Source: a virus
DNA: 21,682 bases
Direction: 5' to 3' (one strand)
Virus record (IMG/VR): IMGVR_UViG_3300025010_001191
Span: 1 to 21,682 of that record
The number at the start of each line of letters is the position of its first letter. Position 1 is the first letter of the stretch. The notes under the pieces were generated by a model. That model searched no databases and had not been told where the DNA came from. It was given only the letters and a program-made list of their open reading frames with translations. Of the stretch, positions 3,439-17,555 are shown piece after piece. Made by a program: the position numbers and the translations under genes.

Positions 3439-4128
3439 ATGGAAATCAAACAAAAACCGAGCAAGAATTTTAGTAGCAGGCAGGGCAGAAAAATCATTGC
3501 CATTGTCGATCACATTACGGCAGGTGCTTTTAGTGGTGCAGTATCATGGTTATCTAATCCGGCGGCCAAGGCAAGCGCACACTACATTATTAGTCGCGCC
3601 GGTGAGATTGTGCAGTTAGTGGCAGACGAGAATAAGGCATGGCACGCAGGCGGTCCGAATAAACCTAATTGGCCTGTGTATGACGGTACGGATCCTAACC
3701 TCTACACCATCGGTATTGAGCATGAGGGGTATAAGGACCAAGGCGGCAATGGTCAATTAACCGAGGACCAGTATCAGGCGACACTTTGGTTACACCGTCA
3801 ATTAATTGCCAAACATGGAATTAAGATTGACCGCGATCATATCATCGGGCATTACCGTATTGACAGCGTTAACCGTCCTAATTGCCCAGGTCCGGCGTTT
3901 CCTTGGGATAGGTTGTTTGATGATCTAGATAATAAACCCGTTAGTCAAGTCCCAGGCCCCTTCCCTGACGTTGCAGGTGATAGGTGGTCGGCAGGACATA
4001 TTGCCAGAGTCAAGGATTTAGGTCTAATGGTTGGCGGCGGTGATGGGTACTTTAATCCCGAAGCACCGTTGACGAGAGAACAAATGGCGGCGTTAATTTG
4101 CAAATTAATTGATAAGGGGATGTTATAA
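3439..4128 (+). CDS. N-acetylmuramoyl-L-alanine amidase endolysin with SLH domain
   Basis: A 229-aa protein. Residues about 18-150 are an Amidase_2 (T7 lysozyme/PGRP) domain. Zinc ligand candidates are the His of VDHITAG, the His of IIGHYRID and the Cys of NRPNCPGP; IGIEHEG is a further conserved piece. The C-terminal about 55 residues form one S-layer homology repeat (FPDVAGDRWSAGHIARVKDL, GYFNPEAPLTREQMA). SLH binds secondary cell-wall polymer, or peptidoglycan in diderm Bacillota, so it is the wall-targeting part here. GGAGAGG precedes ATG 3439. It cuts the amide bond between muramic acid and the stem peptide for host lysis. Confidence 0.9.
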   Translation: MEIKQKPSKNFSSRQGRKIIAIVDHITAGAFSGAVSWLSNPAAKASAHYIISRAGEIVQLVADENKAWHAGGPNKPNWPVYDGTDPNLYTIGIEHEGYKDQGGNGQLTEDQYQATLWLHRQLIAKHGIKIDRDHIIGHYRIDSVNRPNCPGPAFPWDRLFDDLDNKPVSQVPGPFPDVAGDRWSAGHIARVKDLGLMVGGGDGYFNPEAPLTREQMAALICKLIDKGML

Positions 4129-6566: not shown

Positions 6567-6643
6567 AGGGACGAAAGGGAATCGAACCCATGACCTCTGC
6601 TCACCGTAGAAGTGTCAGAACTTTACCACTAAGCTATCAACCC
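6567..6643 (-). tRNA. tRNA-like gene with abnormal anticodon arm
   Basis: Acceptor GGGTTGA (6643-6637) pairs with TCGTCCC (6574-6568) apart from one mismatch. The D arm is GCTT-AGTGGTA-AAGT, the variable region AGGTC, and the T arm has a canonical TTCGATT loop with a GGG/CCC core. No CCA is encoded. The anticodon arm is about 5 nt too long: CTG-A-CAC-TTCTACG-GTG-AG-CAG. If the 7-nt loop is TTCTACG, U33 is present and the anticodon is CUA (amber), but position 37 is C, not the usual purine. Shifting by one would give UCU with a poor stem. It may be a domain of the large RNA and not a decoding tRNA. Confidence 0.6.
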
Positions 6644-7166: not shown

Positions 7167-7306
7167 CAACTATTGGCGTTGTGTTGCTGACAATTGCATC
7201 TTACAGTTTAGTCGAAATACTTCTGATGGGCAGGGAGAAGTTGAAGTCTGTATGGACTGAGGTTGACAATATCCCTGATAGTAAGGAGGCATGGGATAAT
7301 GAGTAG
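7154..7306 (+). CDS. Small single-span membrane protein
   Basis: A 50-aa protein. Residues about 3-25 are hydrophobic (TLTTIGVVLLTIASYSLVEI), followed by a charged tail ending DSKEAWDNE. AAGGAGTGG precedes the ATG. Its stop overlaps the FtsK start (ATGAGTAG), so the two are translationally coupled. It may be a membrane partner for the FtsK-like ATPase, an inference from position. Confidence 0.65.
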   Translation: MGTLTTIGVVLLTIASYSLVEILLMGREKLKSVWTEVDNIPDSKEAWDNE

Positions 7307-8531
7307 CGGATCGGCAAATGCTTTTGACGGTATCGGCAAGGGTATATGGTTGGGAGTTGATTCAAGCATTAACTGTATTACGAATGTGGTAAAGTTTTTT
7401 ACCGATAAGTATTCCGAGAATAAGAAGGAAAAGGCTAAAGAGTTATTTAGAAATGTCGGCATGGAACGAACTGACGTAAGCGGTAAAGTTGATAGACCGC
7501 GAATTGTTAAGCAGATAAAAACGGATTATGGGGTTCATATGATAGTTAAACCTTATCCCGGCATTTGGATAGGTGACTTCTTTAAATACCATGCTCAACT
7601 AGAGTCTGCCTTAAATGCCGAGGTGCAGATTACGCAGGATAGTAAGGGGTATATCCACCTGAGAGTGTTTACAAGGGGCATACCGAGACGCTTTAAGTAT
7701 GTAGGTAGTTTGGCTAGTAGAGCGAAGAAATACCCCTGTGCCGTGCCTGTAGGAGTTGGCAGAGAGGGTTTGGTTATGCTCAATCTATCCGATGATGAAT
7801 GTTTTTCCGTATTGGTTGCCGGGATGCCGGGAGGTGGCAAAAGTAGTTTTATTCGGCAGGCGTTAATGAGTTTAGTTACTAACTATACGCCGGACGAAGC
7901 TATTCTTTATTTGGTCGATATGAAGCGCGGAGGGGTTGAGTTATCGGGATTTCAACTCGCTCCACACGTTAAGGATTTTGCTTGTGACTTAAAAGGTGCT
8001 GGCCGTGTTTTGACTGCTGCGCTGGACGAATTGGATTATCGTGCAGGTTTAATTGGTGGTGCAAATGTTTCTAGTATTGCCGACTACAATAGATACGGCA
8101 AGGGTAAAATGTCTCATGCCGTTGTCGTTATTGATGAATGGATGAGTCTTGACGATGAAGTTAAGAAGATGGCATTAACCTTAGTGCAGCAGGGACGTTT
8201 CGCCGGGATGCACACGATTATTTGCACACAGCATCCGAGTTGTAAAGTTGTATCGGGTGAGGTTAGAAGTTTAATACCGGCAACGATAGCGTTTAAAGTG
8301 TCGTCGAGGCGGTACAGTCGCATGGTTTTAGGTGAGGAACGTAATCAGGCCGCATACTTAGAATGTCCTGGCAGATGTATTTATCAGGCTAAAGAGAGGA
8401 TGCGGAAGGTTCAAGTTATGGACCTGCACCCAAGTAAAATAGAAAAAATGATCCGCAAATTATATCCGACAGATAAAACGGTTACGGTATTGGCAACCGA
8501 GAAAGACAAGGAGGTGGCATTGAGTTGGTGA
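7299..8531 (+). CDS. FtsK/SpoIIIE-type DNA translocase ATPase
   Basis: A 410-aa protein. The FtsK/SpoIIIE motor domain has Walker A GMPGGGKSS (about 174-182), VDMKRGGVEL after it, Walker B HAVVVIDEW (about 271-279), and a later sensor-like segment (IICTQHPS). ATG 7299 has AAGGAGG at 7283-7289; an upstream TTG frame is rejected. There are no membrane spans, and the N-terminus is short. Such small FtsK-like ATPases pair with replication-relaxation proteins in plasmids, integrative elements and phage-plasmids, as here (8834-9460). It may pump or segregate element DNA. Confidence 0.9.
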   Translation: MSSGSANAFDGIGKGIWLGVDSSINCITNVVKFFTDKYSENKKEKAKELFRNVGMERTDVSGKVDRPRIVKQIKTDYGVHMIVKPYPGIWIGDFFKYHAQLESALNAEVQITQDSKGYIHLRVFTRGIPRRFKYVGSLASRAKKYPCAVPVGVGREGLVMLNLSDDECFSVLVAGMPGGGKSSFIRQALMSLVTNYTPDEAILYLVDMKRGGVELSGFQLAPHVKDFACDLKGAGRVLTAALDELDYRAGLIGGANVSSIADYNRYGKGKMSHAVVVIDEWMSLDDEVKKMALTLVQQGRFAGMHTIICTQHPSCKVVSGEVRSLIPATIAFKVSSRRYSRMVLGEERNQAAYLECPGRCIYQAKERMRKVQVMDLHPSKIEKMIRKLYPTDKTVTVLATEKDKEVALSW

Positions 8532-8773
8532 GAACAATGGATGATTATAACCCCAATATTCATATAGGTTGGACTTATCCAGAAATAAATAAATTTAAAA
8601 AGTCAGAACATGCACATAAATATAGACTTATTGCCGGTAATAACGAGAGGTTTGTAGTTAACTATATACCTACTAAAGATGGACACATAGTCAGGTATGG
8701 TTATTTCTCAGAAACAAAGTCATGCTCTCCGAATGGTTATGATAAGGTGGACGGTGGGGCAGGAAACTGGTAA
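8525..8773 (+). CDS. Hypothetical protein, 82 aa
   Basis: TTG start at 8525, overlapping the FtsK stop, with AAGGAGGTGG at 8508-8517. Composition is polar and aromatic (YNPNIHIGWTYPEINKFKKS, GHIVRYGYFSETKS), ending GGAGNW. No family recognised. A GTG at 8528 is a possible alternative. It sits between the FtsK ATPase and the replication-relaxation gene. Confidence 0.6.
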   Translation: MVRTMDDYNPNIHIGWTYPEINKFKKSEHAHKYRLIAGNNERFVVNYIPTKDGHIVRYGYFSETKSCSPNGYDKVDGGAGNW

Positions 8774-8833
8774 CTAAACTTTTCAGCAATTCAAGACAAA
8801 ACAACTTTGTTTTAATGTGAGGTGTTAGGCGAT

Positions 8834-9460
8834 ATGCCTGCTAAACTTTCCGAGACTTCTTTAAAACCGCTTAAAGAAACTTCTCGTCGTTTCTTAATTA
8901 TCAACTTTATTCAAGATTTCGGGGTGCTTTCTCGTCGGTTAGTTAACCAGTTAGTGTTTGACGATTCGGAGTATGGTCAATGGAAGTGTAGAGTTGAGTT
9001 GAAGAAGTTGCATGATGCCGGTTTAATCCAGCGAGGTAGATGTATGTCAACTAACGATTATGTGTATTGGTGCGGCAAACAACCGAAGCAGGTTGAGCAT
9101 ATTTTAGGGATTAACGAAGTATGTATAATCGTGCGTGAGAAGGCCATATTCAAGCGCGAATACGATTTTGGTATTGGAGTAGCAGACGCTTATATTACCG
9201 TTGAAAATAGACCTTATTTTGTGGAATATCAGCGAGCGATTAATCACTCTGATATGTCGGTTAAGGTTAAGCAATACGAGCAATATGCGCTTAGTCGTAA
9301 ATGGGATACCGAGGATTGGCCGATGCCGGGACGTTTCGCCCGTGTGGTGGTTGTTGTTGATAATCTTAAAGACAGGGCGCGGATTGAGAAACTTGTCAAG
9401 GACAGTTCGGTTAAGTTTATCGTTTGTCTATTAAATGAAGTTAAGGAGGTTATTGTATGA
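8834..9460 (+). CDS. Replication-relaxation family protein
   Basis: A 208-aa protein. Residues about 18-85 form a winged helix (FLIINFIQDFGVLSRRLVNQ, ELKKLHDAGLIQRG). The C-terminal part carries YDFGIGVADAYITVENRPYF-VEYQRA, with an acidic D...E-x-Q pattern like a restriction-type nuclease fold. This is the Replic_Relax layout seen in mobile elements, sometimes linked to rolling-circle or conjugative relaxation. ATG 8834 is preferred, with GTGAGGTG at 8816-8823; GTG 8822 overlaps that site. It pairs with the FtsK-like ATPase upstream. Confidence 0.8.
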   Translation: MPAKLSETSLKPLKETSRRFLIINFIQDFGVLSRRLVNQLVFDDSEYGQWKCRVELKKLHDAGLIQRGRCMSTNDYVYWCGKQPKQVEHILGINEVCIIVREKAIFKREYDFGIGVADAYITVENRPYFVEYQRAINHSDMSVKVKQYEQYALSRKWDTEDWPMPGRFARVVVVVDNLKDRARIEKLVKDSSVKFIVCLLNEVKEVIV

Positions 9461-14916: not shown

Positions 14917-14940
14917 AACCGCTTCGGCGGTTTTACTTTT
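14917..14940 (+). terminator. UUCG terminator between convergent units
   Basis: AACCGC (14917-14922), TTCG, GCGGTT (14927-14932), then TTACTTTTT. It also abuts the stop of the minus-strand gene ending at 14933. Confidence 0.85.
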
Positions 14941-15772
14941 TCCAGAACTTCCACCAGGGCCGCTTACTTTGTGCCGCTAAAATATCTTCATTCTGTTTCT
15001 TGATCCACTCATATTCCTTTATGATGCTCTCTGTATTGCTAAAACTATCATTCTTAACATTTTCTATGGCGGACAACACTTCTTTTTTCTCCATGTCCTT
15101 TTCTCTCTTTAATTCCTCAAACATAGATACGGTTAATTCCTGTTGTTGGGCCAAAAGTTTCTCAAAATATTTTTGCTGCTCAGACAAGGCATGACTTATT
15201 TTTTCTTCAACTTCGGCCATGTAGTTGCGGCCAACGTCGATAATTTGTATCGGCTGCGGAGAATTATTTTCAGGTTGATAAATTTCAGTATGTGCAATTT
15301 CTGCACTAACTGAGTTATCCACAGGTTCGTTGATTTCGTTAATTTCGTTTTCGTGGTTTTCGCTGTTAGGCATTTCGTAAACTTCGCCGTTTAATGCAGC
15401 TTGAATAGATTCAGATGTTACGAAACGCCTTTTATTCTTTTCGCGAACAATAACTATCCTGCCTTCTTTTTCGCGCAGTTCTAAGGTACGAATACTAACA
15501 CCCATCAATTTAGCGGCCTCTTGGATTGTATATCTATCTTTCGTAGTTTGCATAGTTTTCGCACCGTCCAATTCGCTTTTCGTAGTTTGCGATCTTAGAT
15601 CGTTTAAGTAAGATTCGATCTTATTCTTTTTAAGATCTATATAATCATCATAATCATTATGGTTATTTTCGTAGTTATTTTTCGCTGAGATCGTAGTTTC
15701 GCTTCGCACTATTCGTAAATAACTTTTGTACTTATCGTAGTTTTCGTTAACTTTCCTCATTGCCTGTCCCAC
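14933..15772 (-). CDS. HTH, coiled-coil, tryptophan-tail DNA-binding protein (replication/segregation candidate)
   Basis: A 279-aa protein. The N-terminal about 70 residues are low-complexity, N/D/K-rich. Residues about 77-130 are a MerR/excisionase-like HTH (DRYTIQEAAKLMGVSIRTLE, KRRFVTSESIQAALNG). Residues about 190-260 are coiled coil (LSEQQKYFEKLLAQQQELTV), and the end is KRPWWKFWKK, a likely membrane- or protein-binding tail. GTG 15772 fits GGAGGGG best; ATG 15760 and TTG 15802 are alternatives. The layout recalls RacA-like anchors and DUF3967-type Bacillus plasmid proteins. Five 8-bp repeats lie within its first third, and an antisense RNA overlaps its leader. Role inferred: origin or centromere binding. 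Confidence 0.6.
   Translation of the reverse strand: MGQAMRKVNENYDKYKSYLRIVRSETTISAKNNYENNHNDYDDYIDLKKNKIESYLNDLRSQTTKSELDGAKTMQTTKDRYTIQEAAKLMGVSIRTLELREKEGRIVIVREKNKRRFVTSESIQAALNGEVYEMPNSENHENEINEINEPVDNSVSAEIAHTEIYQPENNSPQPIQIIDVGRNYMAEVEEKISHALSEQQKYFEKLLAQQQELTVSMFEELKREKDMEKKEVLSAIENVKNDSFSNTESIIKEYEWIKKQNEDILAAQSKRPWWKFWKK
15541..15742. repeat. Iteron-like array of five 8-bp repeats inside a gene
   Basis: TCGTAGTT occurs on the plus strand at 15541-15548, 15580-15587, 15669-15676, 15691-15698 and 15735-15742, usually with T/A before it and T after it. Distances are 39, 89, 22 and 44 bp; the last three are multiples of about 22. A degenerate TTCGTAAAT lies at the missing 22-bp position (15712-15720). 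The copies fall in two reading frames (QTTK/SETT in one, NYE/NYD in the other), so the sequence is kept at DNA level. An AT-rich tract and the palindrome CGATCTTAGATCG sit between copies 2 and 3. Confidence 0.65.
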
Positions 15773-15823
15773 ACATAACCCCTCCACCCATAAAATTTTC
15801 AATAAATTCTAAGCGGCAAGGAG

Positions 15824-15852
15824 TTGACATTTTGGCCTGCATACTCTAAAAT
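15824..15852 (+). promoter_or_regulatory. Promoter of an antisense RNA
   Basis: TTGACA (15824-15829), a 17-bp spacer and TAAAAT (15847-15852). It faces into the leader of the minus-strand gene and no coding sequence follows; the next element is the hairpin at 15896-15931. Confidence 0.75.
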
Positions 15853-15858
15853 AATAAA

Positions 15859-15935
15859 CAGCAAAGCAGGCATGAGTAAACCTCACGCTTAGATAAAAAC
15901 CACCTACACCTTGGCCGGGAGGGGTGGTTTTCGGC
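15859..15935 (+). ncRNA. Candidate countertranscript (antisense RNA) of about 77 nt
   Basis: Starts after the promoter at 15824-15852 and ends at AAAACCACC (15896-15904) paired with GGTGGTTTT (15923-15931). A second hairpin, GCATGAG/CTCACGC with one mismatch, precedes it. It is fully complementary to the 5' leader of the minus-strand transcript that starts near 15943. On that strand the same hairpin is followed by TTTTTATC and can act as an attenuator. This is the arrangement of plasmid copy-number countertranscripts. A 6-codon frame inside (MSKPHA) is probably meaningless. Confidence 0.55.
15896..15931. terminator. Bidirectional terminator/attenuator hairpin
   Basis: 9-bp stem AAAACCACC/GGTGGTTTT with an 18-nt loop. 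It ends the antisense RNA on the plus strand, and in the minus direction it sits in the leader of the HTH coiled-coil gene with a T5 run. Confidence 0.7.
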
Positions 15936-15949
15936 ATTTAATTGCAATA

Positions 15950-15978
15950 ATTTTAGCATTACCCGGTAAGTAATGCAA
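15950..15978 (-). promoter_or_regulatory. Leftward promoter with operator palindrome in the spacer
   Basis: On the minus strand, TTGCAT (15978-15973), a 17-bp spacer and TAAAAT (15955-15950). The perfect inverted repeat GCATTAC-N7-GTAATGC (15956-15976) fills the spacer and overlaps the -35, so a bound protein would block the polymerase. It drives the HTH coiled-coil gene. Confidence 0.75.
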
Positions 15979-16020: not shown

Positions 16021-16227
16021 TTATGCGGAACCGGCACAACAAAGATATTCTTCCCTGGCATCAACCAGGGACGCATCCTGCTTTGTGGGACTATACACTA
16101 CTATCTTATTAACCTGCTCAATACCTTCATGGGTGATGTGCTTATCGACGGTAATATTGTCACCGTCGACTATGCAATAAATAAAACCGCCAAAGTTACC
16201 TACGCCACTAACTCCTATAATAACCAT
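16021..16227 (-). CDS. Hypothetical protein, 68 aa
   Basis: On the minus strand, MVIIGVSGVGNFGGFIYCIV, then DGDNITVDKHITHEGIEQVN and KIVVYSPTKQDASL. A beta-rich small protein; no family recognised. The G5 run touches ATG 16227 directly, which is an unusually short spacing, so an ATT start two codons later cannot be excluded. It has its own promoter (16294-16266) and a terminator after its stop. A plus-strand frame over the same bases reads less well. Confidence 0.5.
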   Translation of the reverse strand: MVIIGVSGVGNFGGFIYCIVDGDNITVDKHITHEGIEQVNKIVVYSPTKQDASLVDAREEYLCCAGSA

Positions 16228-16728: not shown

Positions 16729-16774
16729 TTGGTATTCCCCCTTATTATATAATTATATTTCCTATCCTTAATTC

Positions 16775-16803
16775 AGTATACAGGTTGTTGTTGGTAGCGA
16801 CAA
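16775..16803 (-). promoter_or_regulatory. Leftward repressor promoter
   Basis: On the minus strand, TTGTCG (16803-16798), a 17-bp spacer and TATACT (16780-16775). CTTAATTCAGT (16767-16777) overlaps the -10 and recurs at 16821-16831 beside the divergent promoter. Confidence 0.6.
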
Positions 16804-16830
16804 TTTCACGGTAAAATATACTTAATTCAG

Positions 16831-16859
16831 TTGACTTTATACTTTTTAAAGTATATAAT
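16831..16859 (+). promoter_or_regulatory. Rightward early promoter with operator
   Basis: TTGACT (16831-16836), a 17-bp spacer and TATAAT (16854-16859). The spacer is an inverted repeat, ATACTTT-TT-AAAGTAT (16839-16854). Upstream, CTTAATTCAGT (16821-16831) repeats the element in the leftward promoter. AATTCAGTTGACTTTAT (16824-16840) is identical to the -35 region of the 902-930 promoter. Confidence 0.85.
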
Positions 16860-17414: not shown

Positions 17415-17555
17415 ATGAACTGGTACTACCTACTTATCCATCATGGCAAGGAAGTTAGTTTCACGGGTGAATTTGCGGATACGCCGTTGGAAGCGTGTCA
17501 ATTGGCAATGGACAACTACGACGAAGCGGAATGGATTGAGGTGTTTGATTTTTGA
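17415..17555 (+). CDS. Hypothetical protein, 46 aa
   Basis: ATG 17415 (GTG 17409 in frame overlaps the previous TGA). NWYYLLIHHGKEVSFTGEFA, YDEAEWIEVFDF. Compact mixed small protein with a weak RBS; likely coupled to the upstream frame. No family recognised. Confidence 0.5.
   Translation: MNWYYLLIHHGKEVSFTGEFADTPLEACQLAMDNYDEAEWIEVFDF

Follow-up and report, generated by a model that had tools for sequence, protein, structure and literature searches.

The locus and its encoded protein

The window, i.e. the whole stretch of 21,682 nt that was analysed, comprises positions 1 to 21,682 of the viral record IMGVR_UViG_3300025010_001191. On its minus strand, which also carries the repressor gene, positions 14933-15772 encode a protein of 279 aa, an assignment based on the open reading frame, Shine-Dalgarno spacing, alignment with relatives, fold prediction and searches. 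The GTG codon at 15772 is taken as the start, because a Shine-Dalgarno sequence GGAGG (15781-15785, minus strand) lies 8 nt upstream and the codon aligns with an ATG in three relatives with conserved leaders; a TTG at 15802 was considered and dropped on the leader alignment of these relatives. Translation may instead begin internally near residue 74, but the N-terminal extension is open in all alleles with peptides kept there, and the extensions of two related records (L013 and L017) differ by an in-frame indel.

Relatives were traced through the repressor, the leader and a leader word in common, giving five allele types: that of the window, L004 (with L002 and L003 identical in DNA), L013/L014/L017, L019 and L034. 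The allele records are related viral contigs, the completeness of which is not known. Searches of phage and plasmid records gave no close protein relatives for the window gene or the L004 gene, and matches of the L019 protein in such records were confined to the HTH surroundings of Listeria phage proteins; similarity of L021 and L022 to the locus protein is also restricted to the HTH. Scans of genome contigs with the gene and the repressor returned zero relatives and thus no host. Elsewhere in the window (3439-4128, plus strand), a gene encodes an amidase endolysin; its SLH domain suggests that the surface layers of the host are anchored through SLH domains.

The protein consists, in order, of an N-terminal extension, which is encoded by the iteron and AT-rich region described below, a MerR-type winged helix-turn-helix (wHTH; residues 80-129, 15386-15535, minus strand, from fold prediction and searches), a disordered linker, a predicted coiled coil (residues 180-270, 14963-15235, minus strand) and a basic tryptophan tail ending in KRPWWKFWKK (14936-14962, minus strand, from the sequence and allele comparison). 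The structure model has a mean pLDDT of 67.7, with a confident wHTH at residues 80-127, low-confidence N-terminal helices, disorder over residues 136-178 and a coiled coil over 180-270. An earlier note on this DNA described an HTH, a coiled coil and a tryptophan tail, with a possible role of the tail at the membrane; binding of the tail to membrane is suggested by its tryptophan-rich and basic composition, and its hydrophobic moment, calculated as a check for an amphipathic membrane-binding tail, was not significant.

Single-protein partition is the main rival to the reading of the locus as a replication origin, because the arrangement of wHTH, coiled coil and tail is that of pSK1 Par, RocS and TubY. 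The proteins pSK1 Par, RocS and RacA are segregation proteins with a MerR-type wHTH, a coiled coil and a C-terminal tail (PMC11500499), and TubY of the TubZRC partition system has a MerR-like HTH, a coiled coil and a lysine-rich tail that binds membrane and DNA (PMC7762940). The locus protein shares the three elements of pSK1 Par and RocS, with the wHTH beginning at residue 80 after the extension, and has the same order of HTH, coiled coil and tail as TubY. Foldseek and VIA matched the wHTH to the DNA-binding domains of BldC, Xis, MerR, RacA and pSK1 Par, including VIA Z scores of 5.1 for pSK1 Par (8csh; 1.8 Å over 49 residues) and 5.2 for RacA, scores that are moderate and usual for wHTH folds in general. 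For partition, the intragenic array would act as a centromere, the coiled coil would oligomerise and the tail would tether the complex to the nucleoid or membrane, with replication occurring elsewhere. The retention of PW[WY] in most allele tails, despite differing coiled coils, is consistent with such a role, as is the failure to find a ParA-type ATPase (PF13614) in five phages, the records of which may be incomplete. Nevertheless, a search of four members for DUF536 of Par and RocS found nothing at E values up to 1, the AT-rich tract, DnaA box and predicted antisense control of translation are origin features absent from descriptions of pSK1 Par, and the sites lie within the gene, unlike those of pSK1 Par and RocS. 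In contrast to TubY, the locus has its own intragenic array, and no TubZ or TubR neighbours were seen near the gene by inspection, as opposed to profile searching. On this evidence, partition as the sole function is possible but not probable.

Repeats, AT-rich tract and DnaA box within the gene

Plus-strand copies of TCGTAGTT start at 15541, 15580, 15669, 15691 and 15735 (spacings of 39, 89, 22 and 44 bp), with another copy on the other strand at 17514; 0.67 are expected per window, and the six copies were matched by no shuffle. The earlier note's observation of five exact copies within about 200 bp of the gene (15541-15742) is thus borne out, and the near-22-bp spacing is more regular than was claimed, since a degenerate TCGTA core at 15713, overlooked in that note, gives four cores (15669, 15691, 15713 and 15735) exactly 22 bp apart. 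On the plus strand, iteron 1 is the exact copy at 15735-15742 (from word counts, core 15735-15739), iteron 2 the degenerate core at 15713-15717, and iterons 3 and 4 the exact copies at 15691-15698 and 15669-15676; a second cluster contains the exact copies at 15580-15587 and 15541-15548. Numbered from the GTG, TACGA occurs at +33, +55, +77 and +99, i.e. in frames 0, 1, 2 and 0, and further TACGA cores are present at +188, +227 and +393. The copies had been reported to occupy two reading frames; the cores span all three, and the claim of selection at the DNA level holds, as the excess outlasts codon shuffling. Moreover, 14 same-strand CGAAA words occur at 15334-15746 (minus strand), with 0.58 expected per 450 bp. 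Against synonymous-codon shuffles of the N-terminal half of the gene, these 14 CGAAA compare with 5.6-5.9 expected, and AACTACGA was observed five times with 1.1 expected.

In a ranking of codon-independent word excess that took in gene chunks from the window and one 60-kb relative, the N-terminal half of the gene was first for pentamers (103 chunks) and also for hexamers, which could be counted in 31 chunks; second place for hexamers went to the relative's own copy of the gene, through another word, TAGAAA. In-phase counts at period 11 were significant for the window (reached by 0 of 400 randomised versions) and gave P 0.0075 for L004; periods 9, 10, 12 and 13 were not significant, and period 22, a multiple of 11, was. 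Across 181 kb from four records, at least four in-phase pentamers at period 11 were found only in the window gene (TCGTA) and the G003 gene (TTTCT, the reverse complement of AGAAA), with zero places at periods 10 or 13 and scattered hits at periods 9 and 12, which are multiples of the codon length. An origin of the repeats by chance from a protein rich in glutamate, lysine and asparagine is hardly credible: the N-terminal half does have this composition and L013 and L019 show little excess, but the excess elsewhere survives codon shuffling, the copies fall in all frames, the 11-bp period is not divisible by 3 and the dense repeat of a third allele is unrelated. The repeats are almost certainly real, selected DNA within the gene for a protein that is expected to bind DNA.

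With a spacing of 11 and 22 bp, the sites would all face the same side of the helix, suggesting head-to-tail assembly of the protein, as for BldC and Xis. The direct repeats bound by BldC have tracts separated by one helical turn (PMC5859096), a spacing that the 11-bp phasing fits, and both proteins share the wHTH fold with the locus protein; BldC has no coiled coil, however, and the function of BldC and Xis is in transcription or excision.

An AT-rich tract between the clusters (15603-15682), identified in a stability scan, is a candidate unwinding element. As the earlier note had proposed, it lies within the gene. Among 80-bp stretches within ORFs of at least 100 aa, the tract has the lowest stability in the window, G003 and G004 and the second lowest in G005 and G008. 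An easily melted AT-rich tract adjoins the array in 5/5 alleles. In addition, a DnaA box, TTATCCACA (15315-15323, plus strand), is the sole match to TTWTNCACA in the window, and the box of G008 is likewise the sole match to this relaxed pattern across 61,652 bases. A perfect box is present inside the gene in four of the five alleles, with constant orientation, before the HTH in L034/G008 and after it in the other box-bearing alleles; the L013/L017 allele has none. The box partly overlaps a retained VDN peptide and, with the codon-random P at 0.0075-0.10 per allele given the protein and its codon use, the argument depends on recurrence and changed position. The GC-skew that the earlier note recommended for mapping an origin gave no signal of this kind, as skew tracks gene direction only.

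The origin of phage lambda also has iterons and an AT-rich tract inside a gene, gene O, which encodes a DNA-binding initiator (PMC7466680). The locus resembles it in that repeats and an AT-rich tract lie within a phage gene for a DNA-binding protein, but differs in its unrelated protein, its position on the lysogeny strand beside the repressor, its predicted leader antisense RNA and an iteron sequence that varies between close relatives.

Promoters, leader and predicted antisense RNA

Upstream of the gene, a candidate sense promoter, TTGCAT-17-TAAAAT (15950-15978, minus strand), is conserved in L004 and L019. Its spacer contains a near-perfect palindrome, GCATTACTTACCGGGTAATGC (15956-15976), which is present as a single copy in the window and is replaced in L013; control of this palindrome by the repressor was considered and dropped, the window having no second copy. 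The repressor/Cro intergenic region has 15-bp direct repeats of its own (TATCCTTAATTCAGT, 16763-16777 and 16817-16831), which are likely repressor operators, and a 68-aa ORF between the repressor and the leader (16021-16227, minus strand) is retained in all four of the allele types that were aligned there; a search with its protein gave no matches.

An antisense promoter, TTGACA-17-TAAAAT (15824-15852, plus strand), is evident from the sequence and the allele alignment, both hexamers being kept in four aligned alleles, with a differing spacer in L004. It is predicted to produce an antisense RNA of ~80 nt (15859-15940, plus strand) with stem-loops at 15868-15890 and 15895-15932, the latter of which pairs in all aligned sequences and shows compensatory changes at three pairs. 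The plus-strand promoter and hairpin that the earlier note had described are thus present, with two hairpins in the predicted RNA in place of one, and are conserved in relatives. The mRNA leader (15773-15943, minus strand) is predicted to adopt two exclusive folds, in which an anti-Shine-Dalgarno arm pairs either with the arm that is the antisense target or with the Shine-Dalgarno sequence. When the leaders of four alleles were folded, the anti-Shine-Dalgarno arm paired with the antisense-target arm in partial leaders ending before the Shine-Dalgarno sequence (0.62-0.85) and with the Shine-Dalgarno side in complete leaders (0.81-0.91). The predicted switch would need co-transcriptional folding, because in complete leaders the Shine-Dalgarno sequence is paired with or without a block of the antisense target. 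An Rfam search at the leader found no family. Output of the gene would be set by the antisense RNA acting on the leader: binding to the 5' arm would free the anti-Shine-Dalgarno arm to pair with the Shine-Dalgarno sequence, and so stop translation.

A close parallel for this arrangement is the staphylococcal plasmid pSK41, in which RNAI, of ~83 nt with two stem-loops, acts on the leader with proposed Shine-Dalgarno sequestration and without attenuation, and the origin lies inside rep (PMC5703833). The locus is like such a RepA_N replicon in its intragenic repeats, predicted two-stem-loop antisense RNA against the leader and Shine-Dalgarno-sequestering leader fold. It differs in that a RepA_N domain (PF06970) was searched for in the protein and not found, the array precedes the wHTH code, a DnaA box is present, the protein has a coiled coil and tryptophan tail, and the carrier is a phage rather than a resistance plasmid.

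Allele exchange, phage context and proposed function

Leader DNA is conserved among alleles, whereas the HTH half of the gene is not. Coding-independent repeats differ by allele and occupy the same places, with TACGA in the window, TAGAAA in a second allele and GAAGTTCC in a third. The L034 gene has seven copies of GAAGTTCC, with the looser GAAGTTC in all three frames; the opposite strand of the 61.7-kb L034 record has two copies in total, one of them within the gene. Repeats beyond coding constraint are strong in three of the five alleles and weak or lacking in the L013/L017 allele and L019; either word counts miss the motifs of these two because they are too degenerate, or arrays are not used by all alleles. 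The refuting case of the earlier note, a conserved protein with lost repeats, was not encountered: wherever TCGTAGTT is absent the HTH half is also changed, and two of the four other alleles have new repeats of their own at the same positions.

The linker, coiled coil and tail are common to alleles in varying combinations: the window shares the C-terminal ~85-92 aa with L004 and the IIDVGRNYMAEVEEKIS linker with L019, and an LPWWRKLF tail is common to L019 and L034. At the DNA level, the window and L004 are 86.5% identical from the repressor side to 15824, do not match across the 5' part of the gene and regain 92.6% identity from 15171. Over 32.5 kb, G003 and G005 share 99.9% identity, yet from a switch point 1.4 kb downstream of the gene they have different alleles and a leader/repressor block with 76-80% identity. 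As sites and HTH are in one gene, swapping its 5' part alters both, and could make a new incompatibility type.

Cluster A mycobacteriophages provide a precedent for extrachromosomal prophages, in which the integration cassette is missing and plasmid maintenance functions are present instead (PMC7157519); the origins in those prophages are of the RepA or RNA type and are accompanied by parABS, unlike the phages studied here, in which no ParA-type gene was found. No match to a serine-recombinase profile was found in G000, G003, G004, G005 or G008, and PF00589 had no hit in G000, G003, G005 or G008; G004 has a lone tyrosine recombinase among its structural genes (L026 / G004:18172-19017). An absent integrase proves little, because contig completeness is not known, and for the same reason the context (gene on the repressor strand, no ParA, recombinase in G004 only) is consistent with an extrachromosomal prophage but falls short of proof. 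It is very unlikely that the protein is an autoregulator or excisionase-like protein with operators or recombination sites inside its gene; PHROGs and NCBIfam label the HTH excisionase-like and Xis is the best VIA match, but an integrase partner was not found in four of the five phages, and an operator needs neither an AT-rich tract nor a DnaA box and has a separate palindromic candidate in the promoter. Lytic replication in G003 has genes of its own, one DnaD-like and one DnaC-like, and G003 carries a further replication-initiator-like gene (L008:4084-4944) that was not seen at the corresponding place in the window. In the window, an FtsK/SpoIIIE-like gene and, directly after it, a Replic_Relax gene form a plasmid-like pair (7263-9460, plus strand), which is also present in G003; the window also has a tRNA gene with an Rfam match (6567-6643, minus strand).

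A maintenance function for the locus is likely, and the earlier note's proposal of a replication or segregation locus with iterons and antisense RNA is supported in this general form. From its sequence features, the locus is probably, though by no means certainly, a replicon of plasmid type that serves an extrachromosomal prophage; its origin would consist of iterons inside the gene, be bound by the gene product and be under antisense control. The MerR-type wHTH would bind the direct-repeat array in the 5' part of the gene that encodes it, and the resulting nucleoprotein array, flanking the AT-rich tract, would open this tract together with host DnaA at TTATCCACA, leading to the start of replication. 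The AT-rich tract, DnaA box and predicted antisense control favour an origin over a centromere, a choice not settled by sequence, and the protein layout argues the opposite. Also against an origin are the missing DnaA box in L013/L017, weak repeats in that allele and L019, the resemblance of the layout to segregation proteins rather than initiators, the failure to find a known replication-initiator domain in the protein and the tyrosine recombinase of G004.

Replication-type DNA and RNA features co-occur with a partition-type layout in the alleles, raising the speculation that one protein does both jobs, starting replication at the array and holding the copies by its tail, so that origin and centromere are the same; this is unlikely, as more assumptions are required than for single-function readings. 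It is conceivable, if doubtful, that a Par/RocS-like protein has become both initiator and segregation protein, with origin, centromere and specificity domain in one gene and incompatibility switched by gene exchange, as possibly between G003 and G005. A partition-type protein combined with an antisense-controlled intragenic origin was not found in the literature searched.

If the replicon reading is correct, the locus would be compact, with the DNA-binding domain and the sites it recognises passed on together in a single coding unit. The several natural, mutually different pairs of protein and sites would make it testable how origin or centromere specificity changes, and how phages become compatible within one cell.
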